Assembly (NCBI GenBank): GCA_028281025.1 | Contig: JANQKR010000034.1 | Coordinates: 135,848-199,847, forward strand | Source: Croceivirga sp. | GTDB lineage: Bacteria; Bacteroidota; Bacteroidia; Flavobacteriales; Flavobacteriaceae | Direction: 5' to 3' | Length of the DNA stretch: 64,000 nucleotides | Shown: positions 24,563 through 41,792 of the stretch, piece after piece | How the letters are laid out: each line of letters starts with the position of its first letter | Position numbering within the stretch: the stretch's first letter is position 1 | Translations under genes and position numbers: made by a program | Notes under the pieces: generated by a model | Seen by the model: only the letters and a program-made list of their open reading frames with translations | Database searches by the model: none | What the model was told of the DNA's origin: nothing

Positions 24563-25852
24563 TTAGTTTTCTACTGATTGGATTCTTTTGGCGAAGAAAT
24601 AGATGGCCGCTACTCCGAGCGGAACAAATATTGCAATCGCTATAAAAATTGGTGTATATGAAAATCTATCGACAACCAAAGGCACCAGGAAATTCATTAC
24701 AATTACGGAGAATACCCCTATCATTCCCCCCAGGCCGGCCAATGATCCCACGGATTTCCCACTAAAGAAATCACTGGGAAGCGTTTGTACATTACTGATG
24801 GCAAATTGGAATCCGAATAGGACAAGAAATACAATGGCCACAAATTTTTCGGCAGTATCCCCAATAAGGACGGTTGCTATAAGCCCCAACAACATAATGA
24901 TACCGCCAATAAAAATGGTGGTTTTTCTTCCCTTGTCTATTGAATTTGTTTTTGCGATGATCTTTCCGGAGACAAATCCCCCGGCGATACTGCCCACTGC
25001 GGCCCCAACATAAGGCACCCATAGGAACATCCCCACTTCCTTGACATTAAACCCATAGACATCAAACAAATAAATGGGCATCCAACCGACAAACAGCCAC
25101 CAAATGGGCTCCAAAAAGAAACGACCCACAACCACTGCCCACGATTCCCTGTAGGAAAGGATTTCCTTTAGGCTTTTCCCCTTGGTACCCTCCGTGGCTT
25201 TTTGATCGGCCTCACTTTGTCCTTCAACAATAAATTTTTGTTCTTCCTGGGTGATCCAAGGGTGTTTTTTAGGTCCCGCCTTATTGATCAGCAACCATGG
25301 AATAATCCAAACAAGTCCAAAAGAACCCACGACCATGAAGGTAATCCTCCAACCGTAGGCAACAAATAGGGAGGCAATAAGGAGCGGTGCAATTACAGAA
25401 CCAATGGATGCCCCGGCGTTGAACAATCCCTGTGCAATGGCCCGTTCCTTAATGGGAAACCATTCCGCATTACTTTTCACGGCCCCCGGCCAGTTCCCTG
25501 CCTCCGATAATCCCAGGGTACTCCTAAAAATTGCAATGGAAAGCAATCCCCTTACCGTGGAGTGCAGGAAAGAGGACAGTCCCCAAACCCCAATACTGAT
25601 CACATAACCTATTCTTGTGCCAACTTTATCAAACAGTTTTCCTGAAAACAATTGGCCCAATGCGTAAGCGACCATAAAGATGTTCAGAATTAATGCATAA
25701 TCCTCCTTTGTCAAGTTGAGGGAATGGGCTATGGTCCCTTCTTTATCCAGTCCGCCCCACATAATCCCCAGTGCGCTTCTGTCTATGTAATTTATGACCG
25801 TGGCAATAAATATCAACCCAATGATTATCCACCTTAAACCTTTAACCTTCAT
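24563..25852 (-). CDS. MFS transporter, hexuronate/DEH type (ACS family)
   Basis: About 429 aa from ATG 25852 (MKVKGLRWIIIGLIFIATVI); the longer frame to 25915 adds a non-hydrophobic leader. Twelve transmembrane helices; NYIDRSALGIM in helix 1 is typical of the anion:cation symporter family that includes ExuT and glucarate carriers. It heads the catabolic operon, so it most likely moves DEH or unsaturated uronates across the inner membrane. No repressor box was found upstream (25853-26074), unlike the other operons here. Confidence 0.8.
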   Translation of the reverse strand: MKVKGLRWIIIGLIFIATVINYIDRSALGIMWGGLDKEGTIAHSLNLTKEDYALILNIFMVAYALGQLFSGKLFDKVGTRIGYVISIGVWGLSSFLHSTVRGLLSIAIFRSTLGLSEAGNWPGAVKSNAEWFPIKERAIAQGLFNAGASIGSVIAPLLIASLFVAYGWRITFMVVGSFGLVWIIPWLLINKAGPKKHPWITQEEQKFIVEGQSEADQKATEGTKGKSLKEILSYRESWAVVVGRFFLEPIWWLFVGWMPIYLFDVYGFNVKEVGMFLWVPYVGAAVGSIAGGFVSGKIIAKTNSIDKGRKTTIFIGGIIMLLGLIATVLIGDTAEKFVAIVFLVLFGFQFAISNVQTLPSDFFSGKSVGSLAGLGGMIGVFSVIVMNFLVPLVVDRFSYTPIFIAIAIFVPLGVAAIYFFAKRIQSVEN

Positions 25853-26074
25853 ATCTTTTTCAATTACTTTATTACAAATGCGGTACCTAACCCCCGTTAT
25901 GGGATGTATGGCCAAATACCGAATTAAAAACTATGATGAAACCCATTAAGACCAGGAAAACCAATGGGTCAGCAGAAATGCCCCTCTTTGGAATCCAATG
26001 TACTTGCCAAGTTTACTTCCTCCTCCTTATTTCACTTGTAATGGACAAAAGCGTGCAATTCTGTCCATTCCCGT

Positions 26075-26785
26075 TCATTCTTTTGTGTTGTAACAATATT
26101 GATAGAGCACTTTAAAATGTGCTTTCATTTTTTCTTTTGCCTTCTGAGGGTCCTGATCTTTAATGGCCTCGTAAATATCCTCATGCTCCTGTATTCCATT
26201 AAAGGACAAATTGGCGTCACAGACATGGTATTTTTCGAAATTGGTGATGATCTCCGGGGTTATGATCAGCATAAACGTATTCATGGTACTGTTCTTACTG
26301 GCTTGGGCAATGGCCAAATGGAACAATAAATCCTCCTCCACGGCCTTTTCCCCATTTAACACCTTAGCTGTATAGGCATCCAAAGCCGCCCGCATTTTTT
26401 CCAAATCCTGCTCGGTCCTTCTTAGTGATGCCAAACGCACCGTTTTTAGTTCGAGCAGTATTCTGGTCTCCACAAGCGATTTAAAGTCCGGATCCTCCAA
26501 ACGTAGGATTTCATCCAACATGCCACTCATGGCCACCCTGCCAATATTTGCGATAAAGGTTCCACTTTGGGGTCGGGATTTGAGTATTCCGAAGAATTCC
26601 AATTTCTGAATGGCTTCCCTAATACTACTGCGACTTACTTCAAATCGTTCGGACAACATACGTTCCGAGGGCAATTTGTCCCCGGGCTCAAGGTTTTTGT
26701 ATTCGATATAATCCCTGAGCTTGGAAATAATCCCCTGTTGGATATTTCTATTGCTATCGTTTTTGGTTAAAATCTCTACTTTCAT
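26075..26785 (-). CDS. GntR-family (FadR subfamily) repressor of the alginate locus
   Basis: 236 aa: N-terminal winged helix (LPSERMLSERFEVSRSSIRE, ~38-60) and a C-terminal FCD domain with metal-site histidines in DLLFHLAIAQASKN, EHEDIYEAIKDQD and KAHFKVL. FadR-type proteins bind TGGT-N2-ACCA sites and release them when they bind an acid ligand, plausibly KDG or KDPG here. Such sites occur upstream of this gene (26797-26824), both susC genes and the divergent lyase promoter. Autoregulation is therefore likely. That the protein binds these sites is inference. Confidence 0.8.
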   Translation of the reverse strand: MKVEILTKNDSNRNIQQGIISKLRDYIEYKNLEPGDKLPSERMLSERFEVSRSSIREAIQKLEFFGILKSRPQSGTFIANIGRVAMSGMLDEILRLEDPDFKSLVETRILLELKTVRLASLRRTEQDLEKMRAALDAYTAKVLNGEKAVEEDLLFHLAIAQASKNSTMNTFMLIITPEIITNFEKYHVCDANLSFNGIQEHEDIYEAIKDQDPQKAKEKMKAHFKVLYQYCYNTKE

Positions 26786-26796
26786 ATTTTTTGTGC

Positions 26797-26824
26797 AACC
26801 AGATTGGTTAACCAGATTGGTTTG
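26797..26824. promoter_or_regulatory. GntR operator before its own gene
   Basis: TGGTTAACCA at 26805-26814 is a perfect palindrome flanked by AACCAGAT and GATTGGTTTG half-sites. It lies 12-39 bp before the repressor start codon, ideal for autorepression. Same element as at 31757, 41854 and 44510. Confidence 0.7.
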
Positions 26825-26879
26825 TTAAATTTATGAAAAATACCTGATCAAATCACGTGTTTTTCCAGCTTTTCTTGGG

Positions 26880-26916
26880 AAAAAAGGGTTATTGACAAAA
26901 TTTTGTCGAATAACCC
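26880..26916 (-). terminator. Strong intrinsic terminator of the susC1-susD1 operon
   Basis: GGGTTATTGACAAAA (26886-26900) and TTTTGTCGAATAACCC (26901-26916) form a 15-bp stem with one bulge. On the minus strand it is followed by TTTTTT (A-run 26880-26885). It lies 34 bp after the susD1 stop and insulates the repressor gene. Confidence 0.85.
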
Positions 26917-26949
26917 TGTACTTAACTAAACTAACTCAACGTATTATGA

Positions 26950-28305
26950 TTAATACCCAGGATTCTGGGTAATTACTCCATCGCTTGCAAGCACTTCCGA
27001 TATTGGAACGGGAAACAAATGATAATCACTGTTTATGGTCTGTCCCATTTCGGCATCAACCGTACCTGTTCTGACCAAATCGAACCATCGATGTCCTTCA
27101 AAGGCCAATTCCAATCTTCTTTCGTCTTGAATGGCCTGTCTCACCAAAGCCTGCGTATTAAGGACCGTATGATCCAGGGCAGTTAATCCAGCCCTGGCCC
27201 GTAAAGGATCCAAAAGATCCAGTACCTCCTCCGCGGAGGCACCATTTTCATTCAATGTTTCCGCGTACAACAGAATAACATCCGCCAATCTCATTTCTAT
27301 CCAGTCGTGATCGGGACCTCCGGTCTGAGGGAATTTTGGGGAGGCCATAATATTTTCGTCAATAGTTACGGCCCTTCTTAAATCCAAAGTATCCCCTGCT
27401 TGAATGATGTCCCCAGCGACAGCATCAAAAGCAGCAATCAAATCGGGATCCAAGGGCAACAACGATTTTGTATCAAGGCCTCCGGACCATGACCAAAACT
27501 CGGAGAACGTGTATTCATCCACCACAGAACTTGATATTTGGGTGGCAAATATGATTTCTGGATTCAAATCATTATCGACACCAAAAATATCCCCAAAGTT
27601 TTCCTGTAAGCTGATTCCTGCCGCGGCAGCTCCATCAACAACAGCGGCCAAATGTGGTGCTGCACTGCTAAAATCCCCTCGATGCACATATACTTTACCC
27701 AGCAATCCCTGAGCCGCATATCTTGAAGCCCTTCCATTTATGATTTCCGTATCCAAAGCAGCAATGGCATCCTGTAAATCGGGGATAATTATGGTATTGT
27801 ACACATCATCCGCTGGTTGTCTTGCGACATCAAAGGTGGGAATGCTCTCTATATTTGGCACATCCAGAATTACACTGACATCGCCAAAAACCATAACCAG
27901 TTTAAAGTAGGACAAGGCCCTTAAAAATTTTGCTTCACCAATATGGGTAGCATTTGAAGAATTCTCAATCACATTATTGGCACTGATTATCGATCGATAT
28001 AAAGCGGTGTAGAACGGCCCAAAAAACTGGTCTTCCATAACCACCAAATCGGGACCAAATCTGTCAAATTCAGGAAATGGTTCTTCTTCCATTAATGCAT
28101 TGTCCGCTCTAAAATCCCCCATTACCGCTAATGGCGTAACCGAACCGTGCTGATAGAAATATGCCGCATTCAAAACTCCCGTAAAATCTTCCAATGAATC
28201 TGAACTGGCAATATTGGGTGGGAATTGGTCCAAATCATTATCACATGCCGTTATCAATAACAATGACCCCAATAAAAATGTATATACTGTTTTCATTTCT
28301 TTCAT
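26950..28305 (-). CDS. SusD/RagB-family glycan-binding lipoprotein (copy 1)
   Basis: 451 aa (or 448 from the ATG at 28296). Lipobox ITAC puts the lipid on Cys21. The TPR-like SusD fold is visible as AKFLRALSYFKLVMVFGDVS and WIEMRLADVILLYAETLNE, with the C-terminal ERRLELAFEGHRWFDLVRTG signature. It caps the SusC1 barrel and binds alginate oligomers at the surface. It abuts the susC1 stop codon directly and is followed by the strong terminator at 26880. Shorter and clearly diverged from SusD2. Confidence 0.9.
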   Translation of the reverse strand: MKEMKTVYTFLLGSLLLITACDNDLDQFPPNIASSDSLEDFTGVLNAAYFYQHGSVTPLAVMGDFRADNALMEEEPFPEFDRFGPDLVVMEDQFFGPFYTALYRSIISANNVIENSSNATHIGEAKFLRALSYFKLVMVFGDVSVILDVPNIESIPTFDVARQPADDVYNTIIIPDLQDAIAALDTEIINGRASRYAAQGLLGKVYVHRGDFSSAAPHLAAVVDGAAAAGISLQENFGDIFGVDNDLNPEIIFATQISSSVVDEYTFSEFWSWSGGLDTKSLLPLDPDLIAAFDAVAGDIIQAGDTLDLRRAVTIDENIMASPKFPQTGGPDHDWIEMRLADVILLYAETLNENGASAEEVLDLLDPLRARAGLTALDHTVLNTQALVRQAIQDERRLELAFEGHRWFDLVRTGTVDAEMGQTINSDYHLFPVPISEVLASDGVITQNPGY

Positions 28306-31300
28306 TTAAAAATTAACATTTAAACCGAGCGTGAAGCTTCTAACAATGGGACTTGCACCTACTTGCACCCCAAATGTCGTAGGCCCTAAATAGCCACTGT
28401 TCCCAGTCTCAACACCTTCTGGATTAAAAGAGGTATAATCGTCTCCCCACAAATACAACAAATTCGTTGCTGCGGCGTATACCCTAGCAGAAGTCAACCC
28501 TATCTTATTGGTCAGGTCCTGATTGAATGTATACCCCAGCGTAAGGTTTCTTAAGGCGACATAAGATGCATCTTGTAAAGTGGCATCCGTTTGATTTCTA
28601 TTCGCTGTATAGTGCTCCCCATTATGATCGGCAATACCATCGTCATCCACATCAAAACTATCCACCAATCGACCGCCCCATTGTGAACCATAGTAGAGCG
28701 GGTCAATATTGTAAACTTCCCCTCCTTGGGCTCCCTGGAATTGGAACGACATATCAAGAGCTTTATAGCGCATTGAACCATTCAAACCCCAGTAAAAATC
28801 GGGTGTGTTTTGTCCTATTTTGACCAAATCCCCACCTTCTTCAACCGTTCTTGTTCGATCGATCACCCCATCGCCATTTTGATCCACGATATAAGATTCC
28901 CCTGTCTGATTGTTGGGATGCCTGGTCCCATCTTCCAAAAATCGCATTTCAACCTCCCCAATGGTTTCCAATCCCCACATTTCGCCAATTTCCCCACCGA
29001 CATAATTTCGAAACACCGGACCTCTACCACTCTGTCCATAAATGACGTCCGGCAATTCATCCAGACCGCCCAAATCCGTAATTTCCGTATCCACCGTAGA
29101 TAGGTTGGCACCAATATCCCAGGTGAAATCCGGTTTTTGTACAAGGGTTGCCGATAGCTCCAGTTCCAGACCGGAACTTCGAACATCTCCTGAATTCAAT
29201 CGTATTGAAGGGGTTCCAAAAACCTCCTCCACACTTTGATTGATCAAGATATCCTCAATATCGGAGGTGTAGTAATCCGCACTCAATCGAATACGGTTTT
29301 TAAAGAAACCTAAATCCAGACCATAGTTGGTCTCCGTATTGGTTTGCCAAGTTAAATCGGCGTTAGCCACATCTGACGGAATTAAGAAGCCGTTTCCCAA
29401 TGCAGTGGGCTGGGGATTCAAAAGACTCAATGAATTATATGCCCCTAAATCCGAAGTTGTTCCCAAAGAACCGGTACTGAACCTTAGTTTTAATAAACTC
29501 AACGCATCCGATTTGTAAAACGATTCGTTATGCACATTCCACCCTACGGAAAGGGCCGGAAATGTTTCAAATCTATTATTGGCCCCGAAACGGGAATCCC
29601 CATCCCTTCTTAATGATGCCGAAAACAAATAGCGATTGTCATACGAATAATTGACCCTTCCAAAAACACTCCTTCTTGTAATGGTCTCGTCCCGCTCCGT
29701 TACAATGATATCCGCGGGATCCAATAAGTTGTAGTTTATAATATCACTGAATGGCACATTTGTACCCCGTAGGGCGGTCCCATTGATAAAGAAATTTTGA
29801 AATTCAAGTCCGGCTACCGCAGCGATGTCATGTTTACCTATGGTCTTTGCAAAATTCAGGGTAGTTTCACTTAGTATTGAAGTTCTTTTTACATCGGTTT
29901 GATCCAATGCAGTTTGATTGGTACGTCCCCTGGAATCAAACTCAAGCCCCCTCCAGAAATAGTCCTGGGTATCCCTAAGATCCCCTCCCAAAACGGTTTT
30001 TATGTTCAGCCCATCTATAATTTGGTATTGCAAATACGACGTAAGATTGCCGAAATACGTTTTTTGATATCGATCCGTATTGTCAAGTTTTGTAGCGGGA
30101 CCCGCATCCCCCGATCCTCCGATACCATTATTTGCCCTTCCATAGTGCCAGTCTTGTGCGGTCATCCCTGGCTGCAATGTGTAGATACTGTTATTAAAAG
30201 GTGCGTCACCTCCCCTATACCCACTATCAAATGAAGGCAACCCCAGGGCCTGTGCCTGAGCATCCAGTTGTTGAACGAATGCAATGGATTCCTCTGTATG
30301 ATAGATGGGATGAACGGGATATGCCCTCAAAAGGTCTCTCATGTCATGGCCCACAATATCCCTATCCGATACAAATCCATTGAAACTTATGCCTGTCTTG
30401 AACTTGTCGCCCAGTTTCGCATCAATATTCAAACGCGCATTGAATCTTTCAAACCCTTGGGTAATCACTACACCTTCTGTTTTTTGATAACCCACCGAAG
30501 CAAAATAATTTACATCTTTAGTTCCTCCACTCATGCTGAAGTCGTGGTTCATGGTATAGCCATTTCGGAAAAACCAATCTTCTATCCCCACCACACCAGG
30601 TGATTCCTCATAAGCAGTTAATCGATACTCCAAAAATGCAGGGTCTATTTGAGAAACGTCCCAATTACCCGCGGCAATCTCTGCCCTGGAGATGGCCGCC
30701 CATTCGCGTCCATTTTTAAGGATATTGTCCCTATACTTGCTTGACGTGCTTACGAAAGAATTGTAGCTAAAACTGGCTTTACCTTGTCTTCCCTTTTTGG
30801 TCGTGACCAAAATAACACCATTTGCTCCCCTGGAACCATAAATAGCGGCCGAGGCAGCATCCTTTAATACCTCCAAACTTTCGATATCGTTGGGGTTGAC
30901 CGTTGCCAAACTTCCTGAAATGGGATACCCATCCACAACAATCAGTGGATCTTGATTACCATTAACGGACGATGCCGCCCTAATTTGAATCTTGGGATCG
31001 GCACCTGGTGCCCCATCTTGATTTTGAATCAATACCCCGGACAACTTACCTCCCAATGCCTCGTCTACACGACTGGCCTGGATGGCTGCAATTTCACCAC
31101 CTTCCACTTTGGCGACAGCACCCGTTAAAGAGGATTTTTTTAGGGTACCATAACCAATGACCACTACCTCATCCAATTTTTGCGAGTCTTCCTGCAGCAC
31201 AATGTCCAAGGTTTGTTGATCCGTGATTTCCACGGTTTGTGTAGTATAGCCTATATATGAAAAGCGCAGGGCTTCCCCCGAGGCCACTTCAACCGTGTAA

Positions 31301-31479
31301 TTTCCATCAAAGTCGGTCTGAACACCGCGAGTGGTGTTCACCACAATAACATTCACCCCTGGGACAGGGGTGTTGTTGACGTCCGTTACCGTTCCCGAAA
31401 CGGGAAAAGTTTGTTGTGCACATAGCTGGACAGTACCAAGTACCAATCCAACTAAAAAAAGTTTAGTTCTTAAGCTCAT
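28306..31479 (-). CDS. SusC/RagA-type TonB-dependent transporter (copy 1)
   Basis: 1057 aa: signal peptide (to ~22), CarboxypepD_reg-like domain (FPVSGTVTDVNNTPVPGVNV), TonB-box-like DEVVVIGYG, plug (LKDAASAAIYGSRGANGVIL) and barrel ending FTLGLNVNF. It imports oligosaccharides with SusD1. The N-terminus and the whole upstream region match SusC2 (38347-41574), while the barrel and plug have diverged, so the two probably handle different alginate fragments. Transcribed from the operator/promoter at 31749-31785 with a ~290-nt leader. Confidence 0.92.
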   Translation of the reverse strand: MSLRTKLFLVGLVLGTVQLCAQQTFPVSGTVTDVNNTPVPGVNVIVVNTTRGVQTDFDGNYTVEVASGEALRFSYIGYTTQTVEITDQQTLDIVLQEDSQKLDEVVVIGYGTLKKSSLTGAVAKVEGGEIAAIQASRVDEALGGKLSGVLIQNQDGAPGADPKIQIRAASSVNGNQDPLIVVDGYPISGSLATVNPNDIESLEVLKDAASAAIYGSRGANGVILVTTKKGRQGKASFSYNSFVSTSSKYRDNILKNGREWAAISRAEIAAGNWDVSQIDPAFLEYRLTAYEESPGVVGIEDWFFRNGYTMNHDFSMSGGTKDVNYFASVGYQKTEGVVITQGFERFNARLNIDAKLGDKFKTGISFNGFVSDRDIVGHDMRDLLRAYPVHPIYHTEESIAFVQQLDAQAQALGLPSFDSGYRGGDAPFNNSIYTLQPGMTAQDWHYGRANNGIGGSGDAGPATKLDNTDRYQKTYFGNLTSYLQYQIIDGLNIKTVLGGDLRDTQDYFWRGLEFDSRGRTNQTALDQTDVKRTSILSETTLNFAKTIGKHDIAAVAGLEFQNFFINGTALRGTNVPFSDIINYNLLDPADIIVTERDETITRRSVFGRVNYSYDNRYLFSASLRRDGDSRFGANNRFETFPALSVGWNVHNESFYKSDALSLLKLRFSTGSLGTTSDLGAYNSLSLLNPQPTALGNGFLIPSDVANADLTWQTNTETNYGLDLGFFKNRIRLSADYYTSDIEDILINQSVEEVFGTPSIRLNSGDVRSSGLELELSATLVQKPDFTWDIGANLSTVDTEITDLGGLDELPDVIYGQSGRGPVFRNYVGGEIGEMWGLETIGEVEMRFLEDGTRHPNNQTGESYIVDQNGDGVIDRTRTVEEGGDLVKIGQNTPDFYWGLNGSMRYKALDMSFQFQGAQGGEVYNIDPLYYGSQWGGRLVDSFDVDDDGIADHNGEHYTANRNQTDATLQDASYVALRNLTLGYTFNQDLTNKIGLTSARVYAAATNLLYLWGDDYTSFNPEGVETGNSGYLGPTTFGVQVGASPIVRSFTLGLNVNF

Positions 31480-31602
31480 TTGTTAAATAGTTAATTTACA
31501 TCTTGAGTCAATTCCAATTCCCCTAAGGGAACCGACGAATCATCCTAATTGCAACAAATAGCCTTTATAGTATCTGGAAGAATTTAATTATTTTTGAGTT
31601 CT

Positions 31603-31696
31603 TCAAATGTGCATACCATATGTGTATTTGTTGATTTTACTTCCCTCCGAAAGAAGTAATGTATCAAAAGGATAGGCGTGCACCTGTCCTTTTTTT
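31603..31696 (+). ncRNA. Predicted antisense RNA opposite the susC1 leader
   Basis: On the plus strand TATTTTTG (31589-31596) matches the -7 consensus TAnnTTTG, with TTTA 21 bp upstream as a -33-like box. About 90 bases on, AAAAGGATAGG (31666-31676) pairs with CCTGTCCTTTT (31683-31693) and runs into seven T, a strong terminator on this strand only. All elements recur at the second susC leader, with the stem changed but still paired (U-G versus U-A). An inner dyad TTACTTC/GAAGTAA lies at 31637-31659. The ~94-nt product would be fully complementary to the susC1 leader, like DonS-type RNAs of Bacteroides. Confidence 0.5.
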
Positions 31697-31748
31697 ATGG
31701 TCAACTAAAACGTCATTTGTAATGGGTTTTATTGATTTCGGTTTGCTC

Positions 31749-31785
31749 AACCAAATTGGTTAACCAATTTGGTTTACCAAATATA
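31749..31785 (-). promoter_or_regulatory. susC1 promoter and tandem GntR operator
   Basis: Two overlapping palindromes TGGTTAACCA (31757-31766) and TGGTTTACCA (31770-31779) plus an AACCA half-site (31749-31753). On the minus strand the -7 box TATATTTG (31778-31785) overlaps the second palindrome, so a bound repressor would block polymerase. Identical layout at 41846-41882. Confidence 0.75.
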
Positions 31786-31902
31786 TGTTATACTAGCGTT
31801 AAAAAAAAATGATTTTGTCATTTAAATGTTAAAATTTTGGGTGTTCCCTTCCTTTGTTTAAGAAAGTTTTAAGAGCTCTAAACAGAACGGTATTGCCCTA
31901 TA

Positions 31903-31960
31903 TCACAATGGCATAAAATCCTTGGAATTGGACTAAAAGCAGTTATTGAGCCTGTCCTTT
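31903..31960 (-). pseudogene. Remnant of kdgF 3' end
   Basis: GCATAAAATC (31911-31920) and GGACTAAAA (31930-31938) align with the last codons of kdgF at 42008-42017 and 42028-42036. Similarity fades after about 31960. No frame remains. The rest of 31961-32112 holds nothing recognised. Confidence 0.7.
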
Positions 31961-32112
31961 TACTACAAGGTCACTACCGTTAACTTAAGATTCAAAAGAA
32001 ATAAAACATTATCAATGGTATGGGGATAATTCGGCTAATGGAACCGGGAATTACATAGTGCCTTCCCCTGCGGAAAACGCTTCTTCATTGGTCCTTGATA
32101 TTCTTGTCCGTT

Positions 32113-33036
32113 TCAATGGGAAACCTCAAGTTCGTAAAATTTGACGGTTGCAAAGGCCCCTGCATCACTGGTTTGCAAATAATTTCCGGCTTTGAAGTAG
32201 TTTTCAAAAATGCCCCACCTCTTTATATGGTCATCCTCATAGACCACCGCTTCGGAATCATTCAATATCACCTCCATTCTACCGTCCGAAACCAGCACTT
32301 CCAATGAAAATGGATCGAAACCCACTTCTTCATTGAAATTGAAACCCTCATCATCTGTCCATGCATCCGTATGCAATATTTCCGTATCCGAAACATTGGG
32401 ATTTTTAAGGACCTTGGTCTTTACCCTAACCTTCCCATCCTGCCAATATATTTTGAGCATGGGTGGGGCATTGTTGTCCTTTTGCCCGATCAAATCCCGT
32501 TGCGCGTTGGTCAAACGTCCATGGATCTGCATAATAATGGTCCTATGGTAGTCCCTATCCAAATCTTGTGAAATGGCTTCCATTTCCAATCTTCCTTTAA
32601 GTCTACCGCCTTGGGAAAAGGTCCAATTGACCGAGTTGCTGCCCGGTTCCATCTGTTCCCTAAGTTCCGTTCTGGACCTGGAGGAGTTTGGAGTGGTGGC
32701 TCCTGGATAGGTATGGAAAACCAACGCCCCCGCTATGGAATCATTGTACATGAACGGTTTCAAGGTTTCGTTTGTGGCGTACGCCAATATTTCAGGTGGT
32801 TCCACCTCAATGGGCCTACCATCGCTTCCTATGGGAAGTGTCACCTTCCAATGGTTTAAATCGATTTCCGGCAGTACGTATGAGGGGTCTTTGGTCTCCT
32901 CCACGGCACCGGTGGGTGTCCCTTCTTCAGCACCTATTTCTTCATGGATTTCCTGATGTACCTCTTCTTGGGAATCACAACTTTGACAAGAGGCCAAAGT
33001 GACCAGCAAGCCCATAAACCAAAAAACGGATTTCAT
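32113..33036 (-). CDS. Alginate lyase, family PL7 (lipoprotein)
   Basis: 307 aa. Lipobox LASC (Cys17) then an acidic linker (to ~50) and one PL7 jelly-roll. The three PL7 signatures are present: RSRTELREQM, QIHGRL and YFKAGNYLQ. Isoleucine in QIH is usually linked with cutting at G or mixed G/M blocks. It cleaves alginate by beta-elimination on the cell surface. Last gene of the six-gene susC2 operon, ten bases after a closely related lyase gene. Confidence 0.92.
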   Translation of the reverse strand: MKSVFWFMGLLVTLASCQSCDSQEEVHQEIHEEIGAEEGTPTGAVEETKDPSYVLPEIDLNHWKVTLPIGSDGRPIEVEPPEILAYATNETLKPFMYNDSIAGALVFHTYPGATTPNSSRSRTELREQMEPGSNSVNWTFSQGGRLKGRLEMEAISQDLDRDYHRTIIMQIHGRLTNAQRDLIGQKDNNAPPMLKIYWQDGKVRVKTKVLKNPNVSDTEILHTDAWTDDEGFNFNEEVGFDPFSLEVLVSDGRMEVILNDSEAVVYEDDHIKRWGIFENYFKAGNYLQTSDAGAFATVKFYELEVSH

Positions 33037-33045
33037 AGTATACGG

Positions 33046-33969
33046 TTAGTGTTCAACATCCAGTTCATAAATCCTTACTTTGGCAAAAGCACCTTCGTCC
33101 CTGGTCTGGAGATAATTGCCAGCCTTAAAGTAATTCTCAAAAATGCCCCACTTTCTTATACTGATATCATCATAAACAAAAAACTCATTTTTATTTAAAG
33201 AGACCACCATTTTGCCGTCGGTAACATCTACCGCAATCAGAAACTTTCTAAAACCGACTTCCTCCTCAAATGTTCTACCCTTATCATCTCCCCAAGCTTC
33301 TTTATGCAATATTCCGACTTGGTCAACATCCGCATATTTCAGCACTTTGGTCTTCACCCGTATCTTACCGTCCTGCCAATAAATCTTAAGGATGGGCGGT
33401 GCATTATTGTCTTTTTGTCCGATCAACTCCCGCTGTTCATTAGTGAGCCTTCCATGGATTTGGGCAATGATCACTTTATGATATTTTCCATCTTTCGCTT
33501 TGGAAACCTCCCCCATGGCCATCTTGGCTTTTAAATGGCCCCCTTGGGCAAATGTCCAGTTTGTGTTGTTGTCACCGGAAACCATTTGTTCCCTAAGTTC
33601 CGATCTGGAATATTTTGTATTTGCGGTGGTTGAATTTGACGGATACGCATGAAAGACCAGGGCTCCCGCCACAGAATCAGTATACATATAGGGGGTAAGG
33701 GCCTCATTGGTGGCATAGTCCAATATAGCGGGTGGTTGGACGGTCAAGGCCTTCCCTTTTCCATTACCTTCCGGAATGGTAACGCTCCAATGCCTTAAAT
33801 CAACTTTGGGCAGGCGATACTTCTTTTTTTTCTTCTTACGCTTTTCAACCTTTACATCCGAGTCTGCAACGCTATTTGTCTTTTCCTGACAAATAGCGTT
33901 AACAGATAGAAGTGTGATTAGTATAAAACTTACCGTTTCTTTTCGGAGATGTCTCATTTGCCTTATCAT
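33046..33969 (-). CDS. Alginate lyase, family PL7 (secreted)
   Basis: 307 aa, related along its length to the next lyase: SRSELREQM, QIHGRL and YFKAGNYLQ are all present. Here the signal peptide ends near VNAICQ without an obvious acylated lipoprotein pattern beyond AIC, so it may be released or use that Cys. A linker contains KRKKKKKKYR before the catalytic domain. Endolytic alginate lyase activity is predicted. The pair arose by gene duplication. Confidence 0.9.
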   Translation of the reverse strand: MIRQMRHLRKETVSFILITLLSVNAICQEKTNSVADSDVKVEKRKKKKKKYRLPKVDLRHWSVTIPEGNGKGKALTVQPPAILDYATNEALTPYMYTDSVAGALVFHAYPSNSTTANTKYSRSELREQMVSGDNNTNWTFAQGGHLKAKMAMGEVSKAKDGKYHKVIIAQIHGRLTNEQRELIGQKDNNAPPILKIYWQDGKIRVKTKVLKYADVDQVGILHKEAWGDDKGRTFEEEVGFRKFLIAVDVTDGKMVVSLNKNEFFVYDDISIRKWGIFENYFKAGNYLQTRDEGAFAKVRIYELDVEH

Positions 33970-33994
33970 TTATCTTCCCGATTCCATTCCAGAA

Positions 33995-35533
33995 TTAAAA
34001 TCCCGGGGTGTTAATAACGATATCCGTTAAGAATACTTCATTATCTCCAGCAACCGTAGTGGTTGGAACAAAATAGAAGATGACAAATTTCTGGTCCGTT
34101 GATGTCAAAATATCATCTGCATTCTCATCTACCCTACTTTGGGGAAAGCTAAATGTGGCATCTGCCGTAAAGCTAAAGGTAACTTGTTGCCAACCATCCA
34201 CAGCATCGGAAATTGCGGGTTGGGTAACGAGTGCCAAGGAAGCCAGTTCCGTATCGGCAGCCGGTTGATCGGATAAAATGTAGAATGTTCCTTCCAAATC
34301 ACCTACGGGCGTACTTTCCGTTCTTAAAAAGGCGGAAATTGAATATTCCACTCCCGTTTCAACCTCAAAGGGTTGATAGGCCCTTTCTCCGGGGCTATCA
34401 AACTTCAGTGATCTATCGGAAGTACCTCCTGCCGATGTTGCATCCGTGCCCGATGAACTTGCTTTGTCCGTTGTACCTCCTGTATTCGCAGCATCAGAAA
34501 CCCAAGCTTCCAAAGCATCATTCCTCCAGAAGTCAAAAGGAGTGTCCGTGCCATCATTAAAGGTATTGTCCGGATCTACGGTCCAGGCATCAACCAAGTC
34601 ATTGTTGTTGTTTTGGGAAGTAGGATAGGTCTGGAAATCCGCATTTTGGATAACCGCGGCAAACGTAGCCTCAATTCCTCCCACGGCAACGGCCTGGGTA
34701 ATACTTTTTGACACACCGGCTTCATTTGTTGTGGTCAACGTAACATCATAAGTTCCATCAGCAGCATAGGTATGGGTTGGGTTAACCTCTGTGGACGTAT
34801 TACCATCCCCAAAATCCCAGCTATGTGATACGGCCAAAAGGGAACTGTCCGTAAACTCAGCAGTTAACGATGAGGTAGTGAACGTAAAATTAGGTACTGT
34901 GGACAATACCAGACCTTGGATAATTTTACTTGTGGCTACCTCAACACCCAAAAAGTTGGTTGCTGTAAGCGTTACTTCAAAAATATCGGCAGTAGCATAG
35001 ATATATATCGGACTAAAATTGGGGGCTTCCTCGGTATCCTCTTCAGAACTCCACTCTACAGTTTGTCCATCCCCAAAATCCCATACCAATTCAAGGGCCC
35101 CGGTAGTCAGGTTTTCAAAAGTCACCTCGGAATCCACCGTACTAAAATCAAAGTTGACAAACATGGGGGACACTTCGGTGGAATCAACTGCCGTTAGACC
35201 ATCCGAACTGGTCGTTGTTAATTTCACCTTGTACAGACCCCCGATGGCATAAGTATAGTTGGGGTTTGCTTCCGTTGATGTCCCACCGTCTCCAAAATCC
35301 CACAAATAGGAAACTGCATCTGTTGAATAACTTCTAAATACTATGGACAGGTTATTATCCGAATTGGTACTTGTAGTGAACAGGGTATTGGGTTGTATAT
35401 TGTTGATATTACCTGTTGGCGGTACAAATTCCTCGAATGTTGAATCGTAACAGGACAAAAAGCTTACCAATACAAATGATAGTGCCAAAACACTACTAAC
35501 GGAATATTTAATTTTCTTGCACATAATCCTCAT
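33995..35533 (-). CDS. PKD-domain surface lipoprotein (glycan-binding)
   Basis: 512 aa. Lipobox FLSC (Cys28). Three PKD domains follow, marked by YLWDFGDGGTSTEANP, LVWDFGDGQTVEW and HSWDFGDGNTSTEVNP, then a ~220-residue C-terminal beta-sandwich with carbohydrate-binding-module-like features (WQQVTFSFTADATFSFPQSR). Encoded at the SusE/F position of the operon, it is likely a surface glycan-binding protein for alginate. Start overlaps the previous stop as ATGA. Confidence 0.8.
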   Translation of the reverse strand: MRIMCKKIKYSVSSVLALSFVLVSFLSCYDSTFEEFVPPTGNINNIQPNTLFTTSTNSDNNLSIVFRSYSTDAVSYLWDFGDGGTSTEANPNYTYAIGGLYKVKLTTTSSDGLTAVDSTEVSPMFVNFDFSTVDSEVTFENLTTGALELVWDFGDGQTVEWSSEEDTEEAPNFSPIYIYATADIFEVTLTATNFLGVEVATSKIIQGLVLSTVPNFTFTTSSLTAEFTDSSLLAVSHSWDFGDGNTSTEVNPTHTYAADGTYDVTLTTTNEAGVSKSITQAVAVGGIEATFAAVIQNADFQTYPTSQNNNNDLVDAWTVDPDNTFNDGTDTPFDFWRNDALEAWVSDAANTGGTTDKASSSGTDATSAGGTSDRSLKFDSPGERAYQPFEVETGVEYSISAFLRTESTPVGDLEGTFYILSDQPAADTELASLALVTQPAISDAVDGWQQVTFSFTADATFSFPQSRVDENADDILTSTDQKFVIFYFVPTTTVAGDNEVFLTDIVINTPGF

Positions 35534-36723
35534 TGTTTAACTGTTATGGCGAATGAATCCAGTCTACTTTCAACACCGGTATTTGTTACGTAAATAATTA
35601 CACTCTCATTTTCGCCTGATTGGAATGTAATGGCATGTTGCTTAAAAACATCGCTCACTCGACCAACATTGCTATCCGTTCTTGATGCAACGATATTTTC
35701 ATCCAGTAGCGATTCTGTGTAGCTGGCAGTATCAGGATTTAATATGGATACCGTAATATCACCAAAGCCACTGTCATCGAACTCACTAAAATAGGTCAGT
35801 ACATATTCCGCACCGGGGGTTACCTCTATTTCTTGATAGGCCACCCTGGCCCCATCGGCTGGAAATTTGGCCGCTTGAAAACCGTCGGGCAGCCTCCCTT
35901 CCACAGATGTTGAATTGATCTGTATCACCGTGGTGCCACCACCAAGGGGACTCCAATCCGTATTGTTTGGCGCCCTCCAGGAATCCCGACCATCTCCTGT
36001 ACCATCAAACAAACTATTGTCCTCAAAACTGGGTTCCCCTATTTCCGGGACAGGTATCGTTGGAACAGCTTGATTAATGGTAACCGTCCGTAGTGTGGTT
36101 TCCGATTTGCCCAGGTTATCGGTCACCATTAGACTCACATTGTAATCACCAGGACCTGGAAATGAAAAAATAAGCTCCCTATCCTCCAAGGTTGCTGCGG
36201 GCAAAGCCGCAATTTGGCTCTCAAAATCTGCTACGTTTTGTCGAGTTTCCTCTGAAATGGCGGCTTCGGCACTGGCCAATTGCCCCTCCAGGTCAGCAAT
36301 TTCCGCTTCCAGTACGGCCACTCTATCCATATCTGATTCACAGGGAATCCTGAATTCGAGCTTTGCTATTTCCTCTTCCAGGGCAACCACTGTGGCCAGC
36401 TCAGCCTCGATCAATTGCCTAAGAATAGGTAAATCCTTATGTATCAAGGTGATTCCTTCTCCAGGTTCAACGGACCATAAGTATTGCGTTCCATTTACGG
36501 CAAGATTGGATCCGGCTTGAAAATTAACCTCATAATTTGCTGATAATTCAATGTCATTGCAATCGAACTCCGAAGTGGAAATGTCCGTAAAACTATAGAA
36601 CGGGGTTGGGCCCGTAAAATCTTCCAGGTCCCCAACATCCGCTAAATCATCACTAACGCAGGAGGTCAAGGAAACCAATATTCCCAGAACGCCCCATCTC
36701 AGGTTAAAAAAAACATTTTTCAT
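35530..36723 (-). CDS. PKD-like surface lipoprotein with inserted coiled coil
   Basis: 397 aa. Lipobox LTSC (Cys22). A PKD-like domain begins with NGTQYLWSVEPGEG (~78-90) and ends with LIFSFPGPGDYNVSLMVTDN (~184-203). Between these halves lies a ~80-residue heptad-rich segment (97-175, e.g. ELATVVALEEEIAKLEF) predicted to be a helical hairpin. The C-terminal ~180 residues form a binding-module-like sandwich similar in type to the next protein. Probably a glycan-binding partner of SusC2/D2. Confidence 0.75.
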   Translation of the reverse strand: MKNVFFNLRWGVLGILVSLTSCVSDDLADVGDLEDFTGPTPFYSFTDISTSEFDCNDIELSANYEVNFQAGSNLAVNGTQYLWSVEPGEGITLIHKDLPILRQLIEAELATVVALEEEIAKLEFRIPCESDMDRVAVLEAEIADLEGQLASAEAAISEETRQNVADFESQIAALPAATLEDRELIFSFPGPGDYNVSLMVTDNLGKSETTLRTVTINQAVPTIPVPEIGEPSFEDNSLFDGTGDGRDSWRAPNNTDWSPLGGGTTVIQINSTSVEGRLPDGFQAAKFPADGARVAYQEIEVTPGAEYVLTYFSEFDDSGFGDITVSILNPDTASYTESLLDENIVASRTDSNVGRVSDVFKQHAITFQSGENESVIIYVTNTGVESRLDSFAITVKQ

Positions 36724-36735
36724 AGTAATTGAATT

Positions 36736-38340
36736 TTAATATCCGGGATTTTGTTCGTAAAAATTGGGCAGATTGTCTATCTCTCGCTGTGGAAAGGGGA
36801 GGTATTTCCTTTCACTGGTGTAAAACAGATTGTTTTCATCCGAAAATCGCTGTAAAATATTATCTGCTTCACCAAAACGTATCAAATCATATAACCGCTG
36901 ATTTTCATAAACGAACTCCACCCTCCGTTCTTCCAGTAAAGCGTCTTTGGTCAAGTTGGCCACCTCTTCCAGACCTGCCCTTGCCCTAACCTGGTTGAAC
37001 GCGCCAACAGCCCTGGGATCTGTAGTACTTTCACCACCGGCCAAAATGGCCTCGGCATAGAGCAACAGGACATCTGCATACCGCAAAACGATCCAGTCGT
37101 TATCCCCAATTTCCCCATCCGTTGGAAATTTATCATTAAACGTATCGTTGGTAATAATCTCCGGATTATAGGACAACACTTGAATACTCGCAGGGAATCT
37201 CACCGGTTGAAGTTCCGGCGTCATCACTTCCAAAAAATCCAATGTTGCGATATTGACGCCATTGGAAGGTCCTTGTAAGGTCATGGCAAAGCTATGGGAT
37301 TCAGAATCTGTTTGGACCTGATCGTCCAAACCACTGTCACTGGTCACATAGTTATCACTACTAAAAAGGTCGTAGGCGATTGAGAATATGATCTCGTCAT
37401 TGATTTCCAATCCCGGATTGTTGGACCAACTGCCATCGAGGACTATCTCAGAGTCTACTAAAAACCCACCTGAAAATTCATTTCCAAATACATTCCCGTA
37501 CAGTATCGCCAAATTGGCATGGTACTCAGCATCCGTTAGGACATCGACGGTGGGATCCAGAGGATCTGCATTGAAAACAAAATTCTCCGCATCCTCCCTT
37601 TCAACAAACAACAGATCATAGTTAAAAAAGTCATTATTTTCCACAACAGAGGCCAATAGTAACTCGGCTTCAACATAATCGGGATTTGGCTGACTGAGAT
37701 ACGCTTTTGCTGCCAAACAAATGGCCGCTCCTTCCGTAGGTCGATACCTATTTTGTTCAACACCATTGAGGAAAGCAATTGAGGTTTTAAAATCATCGAT
37801 AATTCTCTCATAAACTTCAGCTTCGGGCAATTGGGGATACTCCAGCGCTTCTTCTTCATTTACGTCCAACACCTTATCCACGTAAGGAACATTTTGATAG
37901 GCCCTGACCAGATTAAAATGGCACAAAGCTCTCATAAAATAGGCTTCCCCAACGGTGAACTGTTGGGTCTCGGGAGCTAAAAACCGGTTATCGATAACTG
38001 TATTCGCATGTTTTATGGTGGCCATATTATTGGAATAGTAGGTGGCCACATCCCCATTATTGACATCAACGTTATATGACGCTATTAAAGGAAAATTTCC
38101 ATTTTCCGTATTGGCCCTAACGTTATCCGAACGAAGTTCAGTCAATAAAAACTCATTTGCCGGAATCTTTTGGTAAGCGTCCAAAACTCCGTTGGCCAAC
38201 AATAGAAAGCCATCGTCGGTTTGAAGCAACTCTTCCAGCGAGAGTGCAGTGGGGTTACTCAGGTCAAGTTCCTCTTCACAGCTTGCCAACAAAGTGATCA
38301 AGGAAAAACAAATTAGTATTCTTATATATATTCTTTTCAT
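36736..38340 (-). CDS. SusD/RagB-family glycan-binding lipoprotein (copy 2)
   Basis: 534 aa, lipobox LASC (Cys21). SusD landmarks: AYFMRALCHFNLVRAYQNVP, WIVLRYADVLLLYAEAILAG and RRVEFVYENQRLYDLIRFG. It lies six bases after susC2 and is followed by two PKD lipoproteins and two PL7 lyases on one transcript. About 80 residues longer than SusD1, in line with the two transporters having different ligands. Confidence 0.9.
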   Translation of the reverse strand: MKRIYIRILICFSLITLLASCEEELDLSNPTALSLEELLQTDDGFLLLANGVLDAYQKIPANEFLLTELRSDNVRANTENGNFPLIASYNVDVNNGDVATYYSNNMATIKHANTVIDNRFLAPETQQFTVGEAYFMRALCHFNLVRAYQNVPYVDKVLDVNEEEALEYPQLPEAEVYERIIDDFKTSIAFLNGVEQNRYRPTEGAAICLAAKAYLSQPNPDYVEAELLLASVVENNDFFNYDLLFVEREDAENFVFNADPLDPTVDVLTDAEYHANLAILYGNVFGNEFSGGFLVDSEIVLDGSWSNNPGLEINDEIIFSIAYDLFSSDNYVTSDSGLDDQVQTDSESHSFAMTLQGPSNGVNIATLDFLEVMTPELQPVRFPASIQVLSYNPEIITNDTFNDKFPTDGEIGDNDWIVLRYADVLLLYAEAILAGGESTTDPRAVGAFNQVRARAGLEEVANLTKDALLEERRVEFVYENQRLYDLIRFGEADNILQRFSDENNLFYTSERKYLPFPQREIDNLPNFYEQNPGY

Positions 38341-38346
38341 AACTGA

Positions 38347-41300
38347 TTAAAATTGAAAGTTAATCCCAAATGATACCGATCTCACTATTGGCCCATCACC
38401 TCTTTGATAGCCAAAGGTCAATGGGGTATTTGCATTATTTGAGGTTTGTCCTACCGCTTCAGGATTGAAGCCTTCATAACCTTCGGCAAAGAAGTACAAT
38501 AGGTTTTCTCCCGTTAGATAAAAGCGTAATCTATCGAACCCGTATTTTTCGCCCAGTTCACTGGGGACGGTATATCCCAACGTACAGTTCCTCAAGGCAA
38601 TGAACGATGCGTCTTGAATGTGATCGTCCGTAAACCTCCGGTGTACCGTTAAATCAGCATCAGGAAAACTGGCCACTTCATTTACGGCCGATTCACTGGC
38701 ATAGTACAACTGATCCAAATCGGCAACCCTTACCTCAGCCCCGTGGGATCCTTGCCATTGGAATGAAAAGTCAATATTCTTATAAGTGAATTCAGAATTA
38801 AAACCCCATTCAAAATCAGGGTATGGATTGCCCAACTCGGTTCTATCCTCATCATCTATGATTCCATCATTGTTCAAATCCTTCACATATACATCCGCAA
38901 AATCATTGTTGAACCGGTTAAATGGATTGTCAACCCATTCCAATGGAATCTCCCTATCATAGACAAAGCCATAGAAAGAGGTTATCGGTTGTCCCACGCG
39001 GGCAATAAATTCCGTTGGCCGGGTATCTTGATCGATCCTTGAGATAATCTGTTCATTGTTCCCCAGACTTTCTACCGTATTTCTATTTAAGGAAAATTGA
39101 CCTGCAACATTCCATCTGAATTTTGGAGTACTCAACAGCCGGGAACTTGCCACAATTTCAACACCTTCGTTCTTGACTTTCCCTATGTTCTGTAACCATG
39201 CGTCCGCACCATAGGTCGCGGATACCGGGGCAAAAAGAATTAAGTCTTCACTTGTTCTGTTATAGTAGTCGGCCGTTATACTTAAAACACCCCTACCAAA
39301 CGTTATATCAATACCTGGGTTAAATTCTATCAACTTTTCCCAACCTAAATTTGAATTGGGCAAGGTTGTGCCTTTGACCCCTACACCATTATTATAGCCA
39401 ACGGTACTGAAGGTTTCTTCAAAGCGATATAACGAATCAAAGACATTATTGGATATTTCGTTCAAACCCGAAACACCGTAACTGGCCCTTAGCTTTAGGA
39501 ACGTAATGAAATCACTGGAGGCCAGGAAGTCTTCACTTGATACATTCCAACCAAAGGAGGCCGCTGGGAAGAAACCAAATCTGGTATCGGGTCCGAATCT
39601 CGTACTGCCATCTGCACGGGCAGAAAGCTGAAACAGGTATTTACCATCGTAATCATAGTCCAGTCGACCAAAATAGGAGACCAATTTGTCCTGCCCATTA
39701 AGGGTAGCGGTGGTTCCATTGTCGGCAAGCGCAATGTTAACATTAAAGTCATTGGTGAAACCTACGGCCTCAGAATCCTGTCTGAAAAAATCCCTCACTG
39801 TATATTCAAAACCGACCACTGGATTGAAGTTGTGTTTGCCCACACTTTTTCTGTATCGCAATAGCGATTCAAACGCATATTGATAGACCTCGTCTTTTCT
39901 TACAAATCGAAACGATTCCTGATCCCTATTCTCCTGGCCCAACACATTGTCTTGTCGATTGGTTCGGGTGTGCCTGAAAATCCCTGAAATTGCCTGTCTA
40001 AAATTGAGTCCATCCGCCAACTCAAAATCAACATAGGCCGCTCCATTAAAGTTAAACTGGTTTTTTGTGCTCGACCTTTCAAAAAAATGGGCCAGGGGGT
40101 GTACGTTTCTTGTGGTGGACAACGTCAATCCCCCAGACGTCAAATCACTCACTAACGGCAATCCTGTACTTGGATCCCTAGCAATGGCCCTTGGATTGTT
40201 GGGGTCAACGGTAAACACATGGTCAAACGCCCTGGAAAAACCATAACTGCCTACCCCAAGATTTTCGAATTGTGCTCCTGCATCCGTAGAAACACCAATA
40301 TCCCTGGAAAAGTTGGTCACATAATTGAGATGGTCTTCATTCAGAAATAAAGGTAAATGTCCATACTGTCTTAATGGATCGGTAAATCGGGCCGGCAATC
40401 GTTCTTGATCATTAAAGTTTGCCCGTAGATTGGTGCCAAACTTGATTTTACCGTTTTTTGTTTTACTATCTACCTTTATTCTTGCATTGTATCGTTTAAA
40501 GTCATCAATCAAATTAATGCCTTCATCATGCAGATAGGTCAAGGAAGCGTTGTATTTTGTCAATTCCGTTCCCCCTCTGGCCGAAAAAGAATGACTGGTT
40601 ATGGTACCTCCGGGGAAGATTTCATCTTGCCAATTTTGCTCACCATCGCCCAATGAAGCGATGAACTCCATGGCTTCAAGTTCGGCGTAAGCAACGTTGT
40701 AATCGTTTGTGATTCTATCAAAGTTTGGACTATTGGGAGAAATGGCATCGACCTCACCTTGCAGACCGTCCAATCTCGCCCGCTCATCCGCAATTGTAGT
40801 ATTGAAATTATTGTTTCTTCTGGAGTATTTGATTCCTGTGAACGTATTGTAAGAAAATGATGTTTTGCCTGCAATACCTTCTTTGAGTGTGACCAAGATG
40901 ACCCCATTTGCACCCCGGGAACCATATATGGCGACGGAAGAAGCATCTTTTAAAACACTTAATGAAGCAATATTGTTGTTATCTATTGTACCCAAAATGT
41001 CCGGGTCGTTCCCCAAAACAATACCATCCACCACGATAAGGGGAGAGGAAAATCCAGTAATGGAACCTGGACCCCTTAAGGTAATTTGGGGGTCCCCCCC
41101 AGCTTCTGAAGCCGTTGTTTGAATTCGCAGTCCTGCAACTTTACCTTGCAATGCATTTTCAACACGGGCCACAGCAAAATTTTCAAGTTCCTCGCCCCCA
41201 ATCTTTGTTAGGGCGCTGGTAACATTTTTTTGCTTTTGCTCACCATAACCAATGACCACAACCTCATCCAATTTATTCAGATCTTCTTCAAGAATAATAT

Positions 41301-41574
41301 TGATTGTTGTTTGGCCGGTCATGACAACGGTCTGCGGTGCAAAACCGATATAGGAGAACTGTACCACCTCTCCTTCGGATACGGTAAGGGAAAAATTTCC
41401 ATCAAAATCGGTTTGCGTACCTCGGGTAGTGTTCAAAATGACGATGTTGACCCCGGGAATGGGTGCGCTGTTTACATCAGTCACCGTTCCCGAAACGGTA
41501 AAAGTTTGTTGCGCAAATAGTTGGATGGTACCAAGTACCAATCCAACTAAAAAAAATTTAGTTCTTAAGCTCAT
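38347..41574 (-). CDS. SusC/RagA-type TonB-dependent transporter (copy 2)
   Basis: 1075 aa. Signal peptide, CarboxypepD_reg-like domain (FTVSGTVTDVNSAPIPGVNI), DEVVVIGYG, plug (LKDASSVAIYGSRGANGVIL) and barrel ending RSVSFGINFQF. It heads the operon susC2-susD2-two PKD proteins-two PL7 lyases. The first ~120 residues are very close to SusC1; similarity falls in the barrel. Promoter and operator lie at 41846-41882, with a ~290-nt leader carrying an antisense RNA candidate. Confidence 0.92.
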   Translation of the reverse strand: MSLRTKFFLVGLVLGTIQLFAQQTFTVSGTVTDVNSAPIPGVNIVILNTTRGTQTDFDGNFSLTVSEGEVVQFSYIGFAPQTVVMTGQTTINIILEEDLNKLDEVVVIGYGEQKQKNVTSALTKIGGEELENFAVARVENALQGKVAGLRIQTTASEAGGDPQITLRGPGSITGFSSPLIVVDGIVLGNDPDILGTIDNNNIASLSVLKDASSVAIYGSRGANGVILVTLKEGIAGKTSFSYNTFTGIKYSRRNNNFNTTIADERARLDGLQGEVDAISPNSPNFDRITNDYNVAYAELEAMEFIASLGDGEQNWQDEIFPGGTITSHSFSARGGTELTKYNASLTYLHDEGINLIDDFKRYNARIKVDSKTKNGKIKFGTNLRANFNDQERLPARFTDPLRQYGHLPLFLNEDHLNYVTNFSRDIGVSTDAGAQFENLGVGSYGFSRAFDHVFTVDPNNPRAIARDPSTGLPLVSDLTSGGLTLSTTRNVHPLAHFFERSSTKNQFNFNGAAYVDFELADGLNFRQAISGIFRHTRTNRQDNVLGQENRDQESFRFVRKDEVYQYAFESLLRYRKSVGKHNFNPVVGFEYTVRDFFRQDSEAVGFTNDFNVNIALADNGTTATLNGQDKLVSYFGRLDYDYDGKYLFQLSARADGSTRFGPDTRFGFFPAASFGWNVSSEDFLASSDFITFLKLRASYGVSGLNEISNNVFDSLYRFEETFSTVGYNNGVGVKGTTLPNSNLGWEKLIEFNPGIDITFGRGVLSITADYYNRTSEDLILFAPVSATYGADAWLQNIGKVKNEGVEIVASSRLLSTPKFRWNVAGQFSLNRNTVESLGNNEQIISRIDQDTRPTEFIARVGQPITSFYGFVYDREIPLEWVDNPFNRFNNDFADVYVKDLNNDGIIDDEDRTELGNPYPDFEWGFNSEFTYKNIDFSFQWQGSHGAEVRVADLDQLYYASESAVNEVASFPDADLTVHRRFTDDHIQDASFIALRNCTLGYTVPSELGEKYGFDRLRFYLTGENLLYFFAEGYEGFNPEAVGQTSNNANTPLTFGYQRGDGPIVRSVSFGINFQF

Positions 41575-41698
41575 TTGTTAAATAGTTAATTTACGTCTCG
41601 AGTTAATTCCAATTCCGCATAAGGGAATTGACGAATCATTCCGTTTGCAACAAATAGCCTTTATAATATCTGGAAGAATTTGATTATTTTTGGGTTCT

Positions 41699-41792
41699 TC
41701 AAATGTGCATACTATATGTGTATTTGTTGATTTTACTTCCCTCCGAAAGAAGTAATTTGATAAAAGGATAGGCGTGCACCTATCCTTTTTTT
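41699..41792 (+). ncRNA. Predicted antisense RNA opposite the susC2 leader
   Basis: Second copy of the candidate at 31603. The -7-like TATTTTTG lies at 41685-41692 with TTTA 21 bp upstream (41660-41663). The terminator stem AAAAGGATAGG (41762-41772) / CCTATCCTTTT (41779-41789), loop CGTGCA, is perfect and is followed by a T-run ending at 41792. Two leader copies keep box, spacing and terminator while other bases drift. Confidence 0.5.

Follow-up and report, generated by a model that had tools for sequence, protein, structure and literature searches.

Background

The PUL-associated antisense RNAs of Bacteroides, DonS included (Cao 2016, as described in PMC7366714), are 78-128 nt long and antisense to susC homologues. 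For B. theta, the account given in PMC10994844 has ten such RNAs, later 32, and both negative and positive correlations between them and their PULs. The mechanism of DonS is called unknown in PMC11697453. The same source describes RbpB and the sRNAs FopS and GibS of B. theta, which act in trans on mRNAs of SusC-type transporters, belong to a family of 14 paralogues, and are marked by a common seed ("R1" in that system) and by RbpB binding. In a flavobacterial transcriptome (PMC9723704), the list of antisense transcripts is presented only as a starting point.

Here we analyse a stretch of 64,000 nucleotides from Croceivirga sp. (hereafter the window) together with related genomes. In the literature that we searched, no report of the alginate-locus RNA described below was found. 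It appears that marine flavobacteria living on alginate have, opposite the leader of their alginate importer, the gene of a small RNA, and this RNA probably pairs with both the susC leader and a second message of the locus. We estimate a probability of about 0.8 that it is an antisense RNA of susC which also acts in trans on gntR-MFS, by means of a kissing loop and a second seed.

Results

The alginate locus

We regard the locus as an alginate PUL because of its gene content: PL7 lyases, two susC/susD pairs, a regulator of the GntR/FCD type, an MFS transporter, and SDR and PfkB genes. Its features used below are:

24563-25915, minus strand: MFS transporter gene
26075-26785, minus strand: gntR, the GntR/FCD regulator gene
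28306-31479, minus strand: susC1
31750-31778: GntR-type palindrome at the susC1 start
31778-31785, minus strand: -7 box TATATTTG of the susC1 sense promoter (TAnnTTTGG at this place in 72 of 72 rows)
38347-41574, minus strand: susC2
41847-41875: GntR-type palindrome at the susC2 start
41875-41882, minus strand: -7 box TATATTTG of the susC2 sense promoter

In a survey with a loose pattern, where near-identical loci are among the rows, TAnnTTTGG and an operator-like sequence stand on the susC-promoter side in all of the first 72 matches listed, the box lying 33-108 nt past the sRNA 3´ end. Near the sRNA promoter, an operator-like sequence was found in none of the same first 72 matches. Further GntR-type palindromes occur in the window at about 26790, upstream of gntR, and at about 44506, between the lyase gene at 42404-44503 and the gene at 44538. 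No GntR relatives were found in viral contigs.

An antisense unit opposite both susC leaders

Each susC leader faces a predicted sRNA. R1 denotes a model of the 62-nt sRNA core.

31565-31568, plus strand: TTTA, a weak candidate for an upstream promoter element of copy 1
31589-31596, plus strand: -7 box TATTTTTG of copy 1
31603-31696, plus strand: predicted sRNA copy 1, 94 nt, three hairpins (R1 core match 31635-31696, 91.7 bits)
31604-31630, plus strand: hairpin SL1 of copy 1
31637-31659, plus strand: hairpin SL2 of copy 1, loop 31644-31652
31666-31693, plus strand: terminator SL3 of copy 1, loop 31677-31682, with a seven-T run at 31690-31696
41685-41692, plus strand: -7 box TATTTTTG of copy 2
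41699-41792, plus strand: predicted sRNA copy 2, 94 nt (R1 core match 41731-41792, 93.4 bits)
41762-41789, plus strand: terminator stem of copy 2

The original prediction had placed a -7 box, a TTTA and a seven-T terminator stem opposite the susC1 leader, with every element kept in the susC2 leader, and all of them lie where it put them. Its finer points hold as well. The two terminator stems differ by T-G against T-A, which pairs on the plus strand only, and the T-run belongs to the antisense strand alone, the sense strand having after the stem just its four paired T.

The start and end of the sRNA are predicted positions. Both RNAs are predicted to fold into three hairpins (-26.3 kcal/mol for copy 1, -25.0 kcal/mol for copy 2). 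A clear -33 signal is absent from the promoter matrix of 89 loci of the sRNA family. A blind terminator scan of 26000-45000 reported both plus-strand sRNA terminators, with 11 pairs each, and these are the longest stems among the 26 terminator-like sites of this region; because 19.4 +/- 4.8 sites are expected, the mere presence of such a site is not rare. In sequence, each sRNA is complementary over its whole length to its own susC leader and almost so to the other one. Likeness between the two leaders of the window is a weak argument, as they are recent copies, and it is the diverged relatives that carry the argument for the sRNA unit.

The strand that carries the conserved structure

Box and terminator recur in homologous leaders. 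We took 77 of 80 sites, from at least 115 stretches, by terminator sequence alone, the promoter and the middle hairpin not being selection criteria. TAnnTTTG lies 65-105 nt upstream in 66 of these independent 77 loci (100 shuffles: mean 6.6, maximum 13), and the middle-hairpin motif is present in 73.

Among the terminators (3 of 119 unparsed, the set being partly chosen by terminator pattern), changes that pair solely on the antisense strand outnumber those that pair solely on the sense strand by 93 to 3 (G-U 93, A-C 3). For SL2, the corresponding numbers are 18 and 4. SL1 is variable in sequence, and its antisense strand is the more stable one in 105 of 110 cases (mean z -1.97 vs -0.48). In 66 model-derived rows (66 of 73 strong matches, with five near-identical and two decayed copies, L118 3849 and L128 1007, excluded), 99.2% of cells are paired against 44-63% in slid controls. 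Covariation across related leaders is evident from the same rows, with 22 double-change cells vs 5.2 in shuffles.

To judge from these alignments, the structure in the susC leaders is conserved on the antisense strand; the gene, its strand and its structure are established at this level. The antisense RNA that the original prediction saw opposite both leaders is thus strongly supported by the comparison of relatives.

Two other readings of the conserved leader were considered. A sense-strand riboswitch or attenuator was rejected because structure is conserved on the antisense strand, and a DNA operator because of the strand evidence.

Distribution of the predicted sRNA

Across 71 sources, R1 gave 73 matches of at least 46 bits. 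At E up to 2e-5 it matched 76 of 397 Flavobacteriaceae genomes, all of which fall among the 103 genomes with a GntR orthologue (E up to 1e-40); relaxing the cutoff to E up to 1 brings the list to 233 of the 397, and only the 76 are counted here. One GntR orthologue match, G010:C1:1632024-1632725, contains one internal TAG. In the genome of the window itself, strong R1 matches are confined to the two alginate leaders, compared with 52 SusC-query matches. SusC was present in 59, SusD in 59 and GntR in 46 of 60 R1 contexts, two PL7 queries matched in 40 and 31 of them, and SusC N-termini could be read opposite R1 matches.

Within the genus, leader homologues occur in 7 of 11 genomes, that of the window included. 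The ten genus copies measure 85-97 nt from predicted start to T-run, and what remains in diverged leaders is the terminator, the TTACTTC-CCTCC-GAAGTAA hairpin and the box, exact or nearly so. In the second leader of one genome (G010, L031), box and terminator are gone and the middle hairpin is kept with one change. The terminator-pattern scan of named genomes, which yielded at least 115 stretches, had matches in Arenibacter, Maribacter, Kordia, Aquimarina, Algibacter, Polaribacter, Lutibacter, Cellulophaga, Gillisia, Flagellimonas and other genera; the culturable marine carriers Kordia algicida OT-1 and Polaribacter porphyrae are among the matched genomes.

At E up to 1e-4, R1 matched 14 of 395 order-level and 7 of 395 phylum-level genomes, family members possibly being among these. 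The one order-level match outside the family (G454) reads as an ordinary terminator, and so does the match in G609. Rfam 15 at gathering score gave no family in the window, and in seven homologous contexts it gave a tRNA only; a further search had sub-threshold matches only.

We therefore describe the sRNA, as far as model matches tell, as a family found across Flavobacteriaceae. Here we go beyond the original prediction: the antisense RNA stood, while this family-wide spread and the proposed second target after gntR had been missed.

We also scanned 30 other susC leaders of the same genome, some of them shortened by a misplaced start. Five carry both a TAnnTTTG box and a terminator on the antisense strand, a combination absent from all of ten shuffled sets. 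L273, L277, L293 and L296 resemble DonS in layout, with a terminator ahead of the likely susC start and a box overlapping that start, although the A-rich sequence around the start may by itself give rise to the box.

The element between gntR and the MFS gene

Complements of the sRNA loops also occur outside susC leaders, as do single-motif matches elsewhere. A joint search (loop, then a GGAGGG-type sequence, with stem) gave 47 matches outside susC leaders, of which 42 follow gntR; the remaining five were dropped. The element of the window is:

26011-26068, minus strand: gntR-MFS intercistronic element, the proposed trans target (R2 match 42.9 bits, the element itself being within R2)
26068-26041, minus strand: its hairpin, loop TTGCACGC at 26058-26051
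26026-26011, minus strand: GGAGGAGGAAGTAAAC, following the hairpin

In 39 of 41 contexts the loop of the element begins 21-42 nt downstream of where the GntR match ends; in the other two it begins 83 and 193 nt downstream. An MFS gene follows in the window and also in 32 of the contexts, whereas in nine none was seen downstream within the stretch covered. TAnnTTTG was found in none of the 42 cases within 110 nt before or 140 nt after the element, and the element is therefore probably intercistronic. It lies 110-236 nt before the MFS start, and at this distance a blocking of ribosomes at the MFS gene is unexplained.

R2 is a model built from 38 of the 42 gntR elements, with no susC leader among them. 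In the same 38 elements, the stem shows 113 double-change cells vs 38. On the element's own sense strand G-U counts 37 and A-C 3; by fold energy, that strand is preferred in no more than 28 of 42. Searched against the genome of the window, R2 has its best matches at the sense strand of the susC2 leader (49.1 bits), the gntR element (42.9 bits) and the sense strand of the susC1 leader (38.4 bits), the fourth-best match having E = 1. The joint pattern occurs at just these three places in the 64-kb window.

In sRNA-positive contexts the element follows 41 of 46 gntR copies, five being without it. Among 20 of the 27 GntR-only genomes, which we call sRNA-negative in the sense of lacking a strong match because some GntR-only genomes hold weak R1 matches (up to 38 bits), the element follows gntR in none (0/20; best R2 E 0.06).

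Co-variation of loops and proposed target

The terminator loop of the sRNA, C/UGUGCA, is complementary to the element loop UGCACG/A, and the SL2 loop CUUCCCUCC is complementary to GGAGGGAAG further downstream in the element. Read as its reverse complement, the terminator loop is identical to the element loop in 41 of 42 genomes, where permutation gives a mean of 24 and at most 33; the 42nd, L137, is a parse miss whose loop reads TGTGCA. This count tests mainly one letter, because the element search fixed TGCAC plus one further letter (TGTACG was added after L103 had been observed). On the GntR tree, nine loop changes fall on the same branches in both partners, including the CGTACA of L103.

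SL2 and element agree in 39 of 42 genomes. On the GntR tree they show 9 and 6 changes, and only three of those in SL2 share a branch with one in the element. A further permutation test gave a mean run of 11.2 (permuted 9.8, maximum 10.3), with relatedness ignored. The match of SL2 in the window has a bulge, as the window's own element reads GGAGGAGGAAG. Taken alone, it ranks 56th of 6392 tiles, by which the SL2 seed on its own is ruled out as a pointer to the window element.

Twelve further genomes with weaker sRNA scores were checked without the fixed-letter restriction. G189 has both the canonical loops and the element. In G109 (L332, L331), both seeds and both target sites have unusual letters, yet they are exact 8-nt and 9-nt complements, located in its own gntR-MFS region. 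G174 has an 8-nt complement of the sRNA loop in a hairpin loop. In the other nine, the terminator loops have drifted and there is no element, G344 retaining the SL2 loop. Complements in hairpin loops number 2 cognate cases among 11 loops tested (the G163 terminator was unparsed), vs 3 of 121 non-cognate pairs.

Four of the 20 sRNA-negative contexts have a diverged antisense unit with other loops, one has a terminator only, and L314 has a canonical SL2 without the element. In all, at least 13 genomes have an antisense unit and no element. The cis layout therefore reaches further than the proposed trans target, and where the element is absent the loops drift. The conserved loops match and co-vary with the gntR-MFS hairpin, and therefore trans action is indicated. 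Complementarity and co-variation are, like the gene itself, established at the level of sequence.

Changes in copy number and context

In G112, SusC and SusD are absent from the 17.5-kb context, and sRNA, gntR and element are intact. No full-length alginate-type SusC turned up in its genome, where the susC2 query gave at best a match in pieces (E 2e-54). In G245, box and stem are broken in the copy that faces susC (46.3 bits); 14 kb away, in a leader without susC, stands an intact copy (65.6 bits), before gntR and then the element. In both G036 and G257, an intact copy exists beside a decayed one. In four two-copy genomes, one copy is without promoter and/or terminator and largely retains the middle-hairpin sequence. 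Because of these decayed copies, action of each sRNA on the leader of the other copy, which had been suggested originally, is plausible on comparative grounds.

Discussion

From these comparisons we infer transcription, pairing and effect of the sRNA as follows. Opposite each susC leader, a gene with its own promoter and terminator would produce an sRNA of about 94 nt with three hairpins. Its terminator loop would kiss the element loop, as suggested by complementarity and co-variation, and the SL2 loop CUUCCCUCC would pair with GGAGGGAAG of the element. The sRNA would thereby couple control of outer-membrane uptake (susCD) to the gntR-MFS transcript. The most likely effect, its direction being taken from DonS and FopS, is that both susC and gntR-MFS are lowered when alginate is scarce; this is favoured because a GntR-type operator is present at the susC promoters and absent from that of the sRNA. 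In its fullest form, which we likewise hold to be quite probable, the proposal describes a trans-acting sRNA encoded opposite the leader of one of its own targets, with the terminator loop as kissing seed and a second seed beside it, tying outer-membrane import to the regulator-transporter transcript of that sugar locus across Flavobacteriaceae, the partners changing letter by letter.

As to direction of control, a sponge role is a serious rival, although an unlikely one. The pairing would be the same, and the gntR-MFS element would soak up the sRNA on induction and so free susC; this overlaps with our preferred explanation. The position of the element, just past the gntR stop and far from the MFS start, would suit such a role, as would the absence of TAnnTTTG near it in 42 of 42. 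On the other hand, the distance between element and MFS start resembles that between the susC target and the susC start.

It is improbable that a protein or ligand recognises one sense-strand mRNA element common to the susC leaders and gntR-MFS, with the antisense RNA being secondary. R2 does find the sense strand of both leaders besides the gntR element, and recognition by a common factor would also make the copies change together. However, given the terminator count of G-U 93 to A-C 3, a sense hairpin would often be mismatched, and SL1, promoter box and T-run are all of the antisense strand. The nine matched loop changes and the double change of G109 also suit base pairing better than a protein.

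Still less probable is an antisense RNA of susC that acts in cis only, as in a DonS-like system, with the gntR-MFS likeness having another cause. Of 60 contexts, 59 do have the unit opposite susC, and at least 13 genomes have kept it in the absence of the element. Yet a cis-antisense RNA needs no conserved loop letters, and these are kept with the element and drift without it; moreover, G112 retains the RNA without susC. Chance promoter and terminator signals without a transcript are very improbable, for box, three hairpins and T-run are conserved over the family, even though this region has many terminator-like sites (26, where 19.4 are expected).

If the preferred reading, an antisense RNA of susC with a trans target at gntR-MFS, is true, then marine Flavobacteriaceae regulate their use of alginate through a conserved layer of RNA. 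The RNA would also be a PUL antisense RNA with a second, defined target, such RNAs being described so far, in the sources cited, for Bacteroides. The comparison alone names loops, partners and bases to exchange, and the mechanism is therefore directly testable.

How does this RNA relate to known systems? With FopS and GibS, as portrayed in PMC11697453, it would share trans action on mRNAs of SusC-type transporters. It differs from them in that it is encoded opposite susC and its target sites are far from the start codon. Their family is a multicopy one with 14 paralogues, whereas here there are one or two copies, with two strong R1 matches only in the genome of the window.

The part of the proposal that concerns loops has a parallel elsewhere. 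In antisense pairs of the CopA/CopT type, pairing starts between complementary hairpin loops, and the kissing of such loops would be the common feature. Unlike in CopA/CopT, the second partner here would be another mRNA from the locus, with two hairpins of the sRNA involved.

A further close parallel is DonS, to which we liken the RNA by description and not by sequence homology. As in the account of DonS that we cite, the RNA is antisense and upstream of a susC homologue (SusC in 59 of 60 contexts), and its 85-97 nt, counted between predicted ends, fall within 78-128 nt. In contrast to DonS as described there, it belongs to a GntR-controlled alginate PUL in Flavobacteriaceae and has conserved seed loops and a co-varying second target. 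Taken together, we suggest that it works like a PUL-associated antisense RNA plus a trans target.
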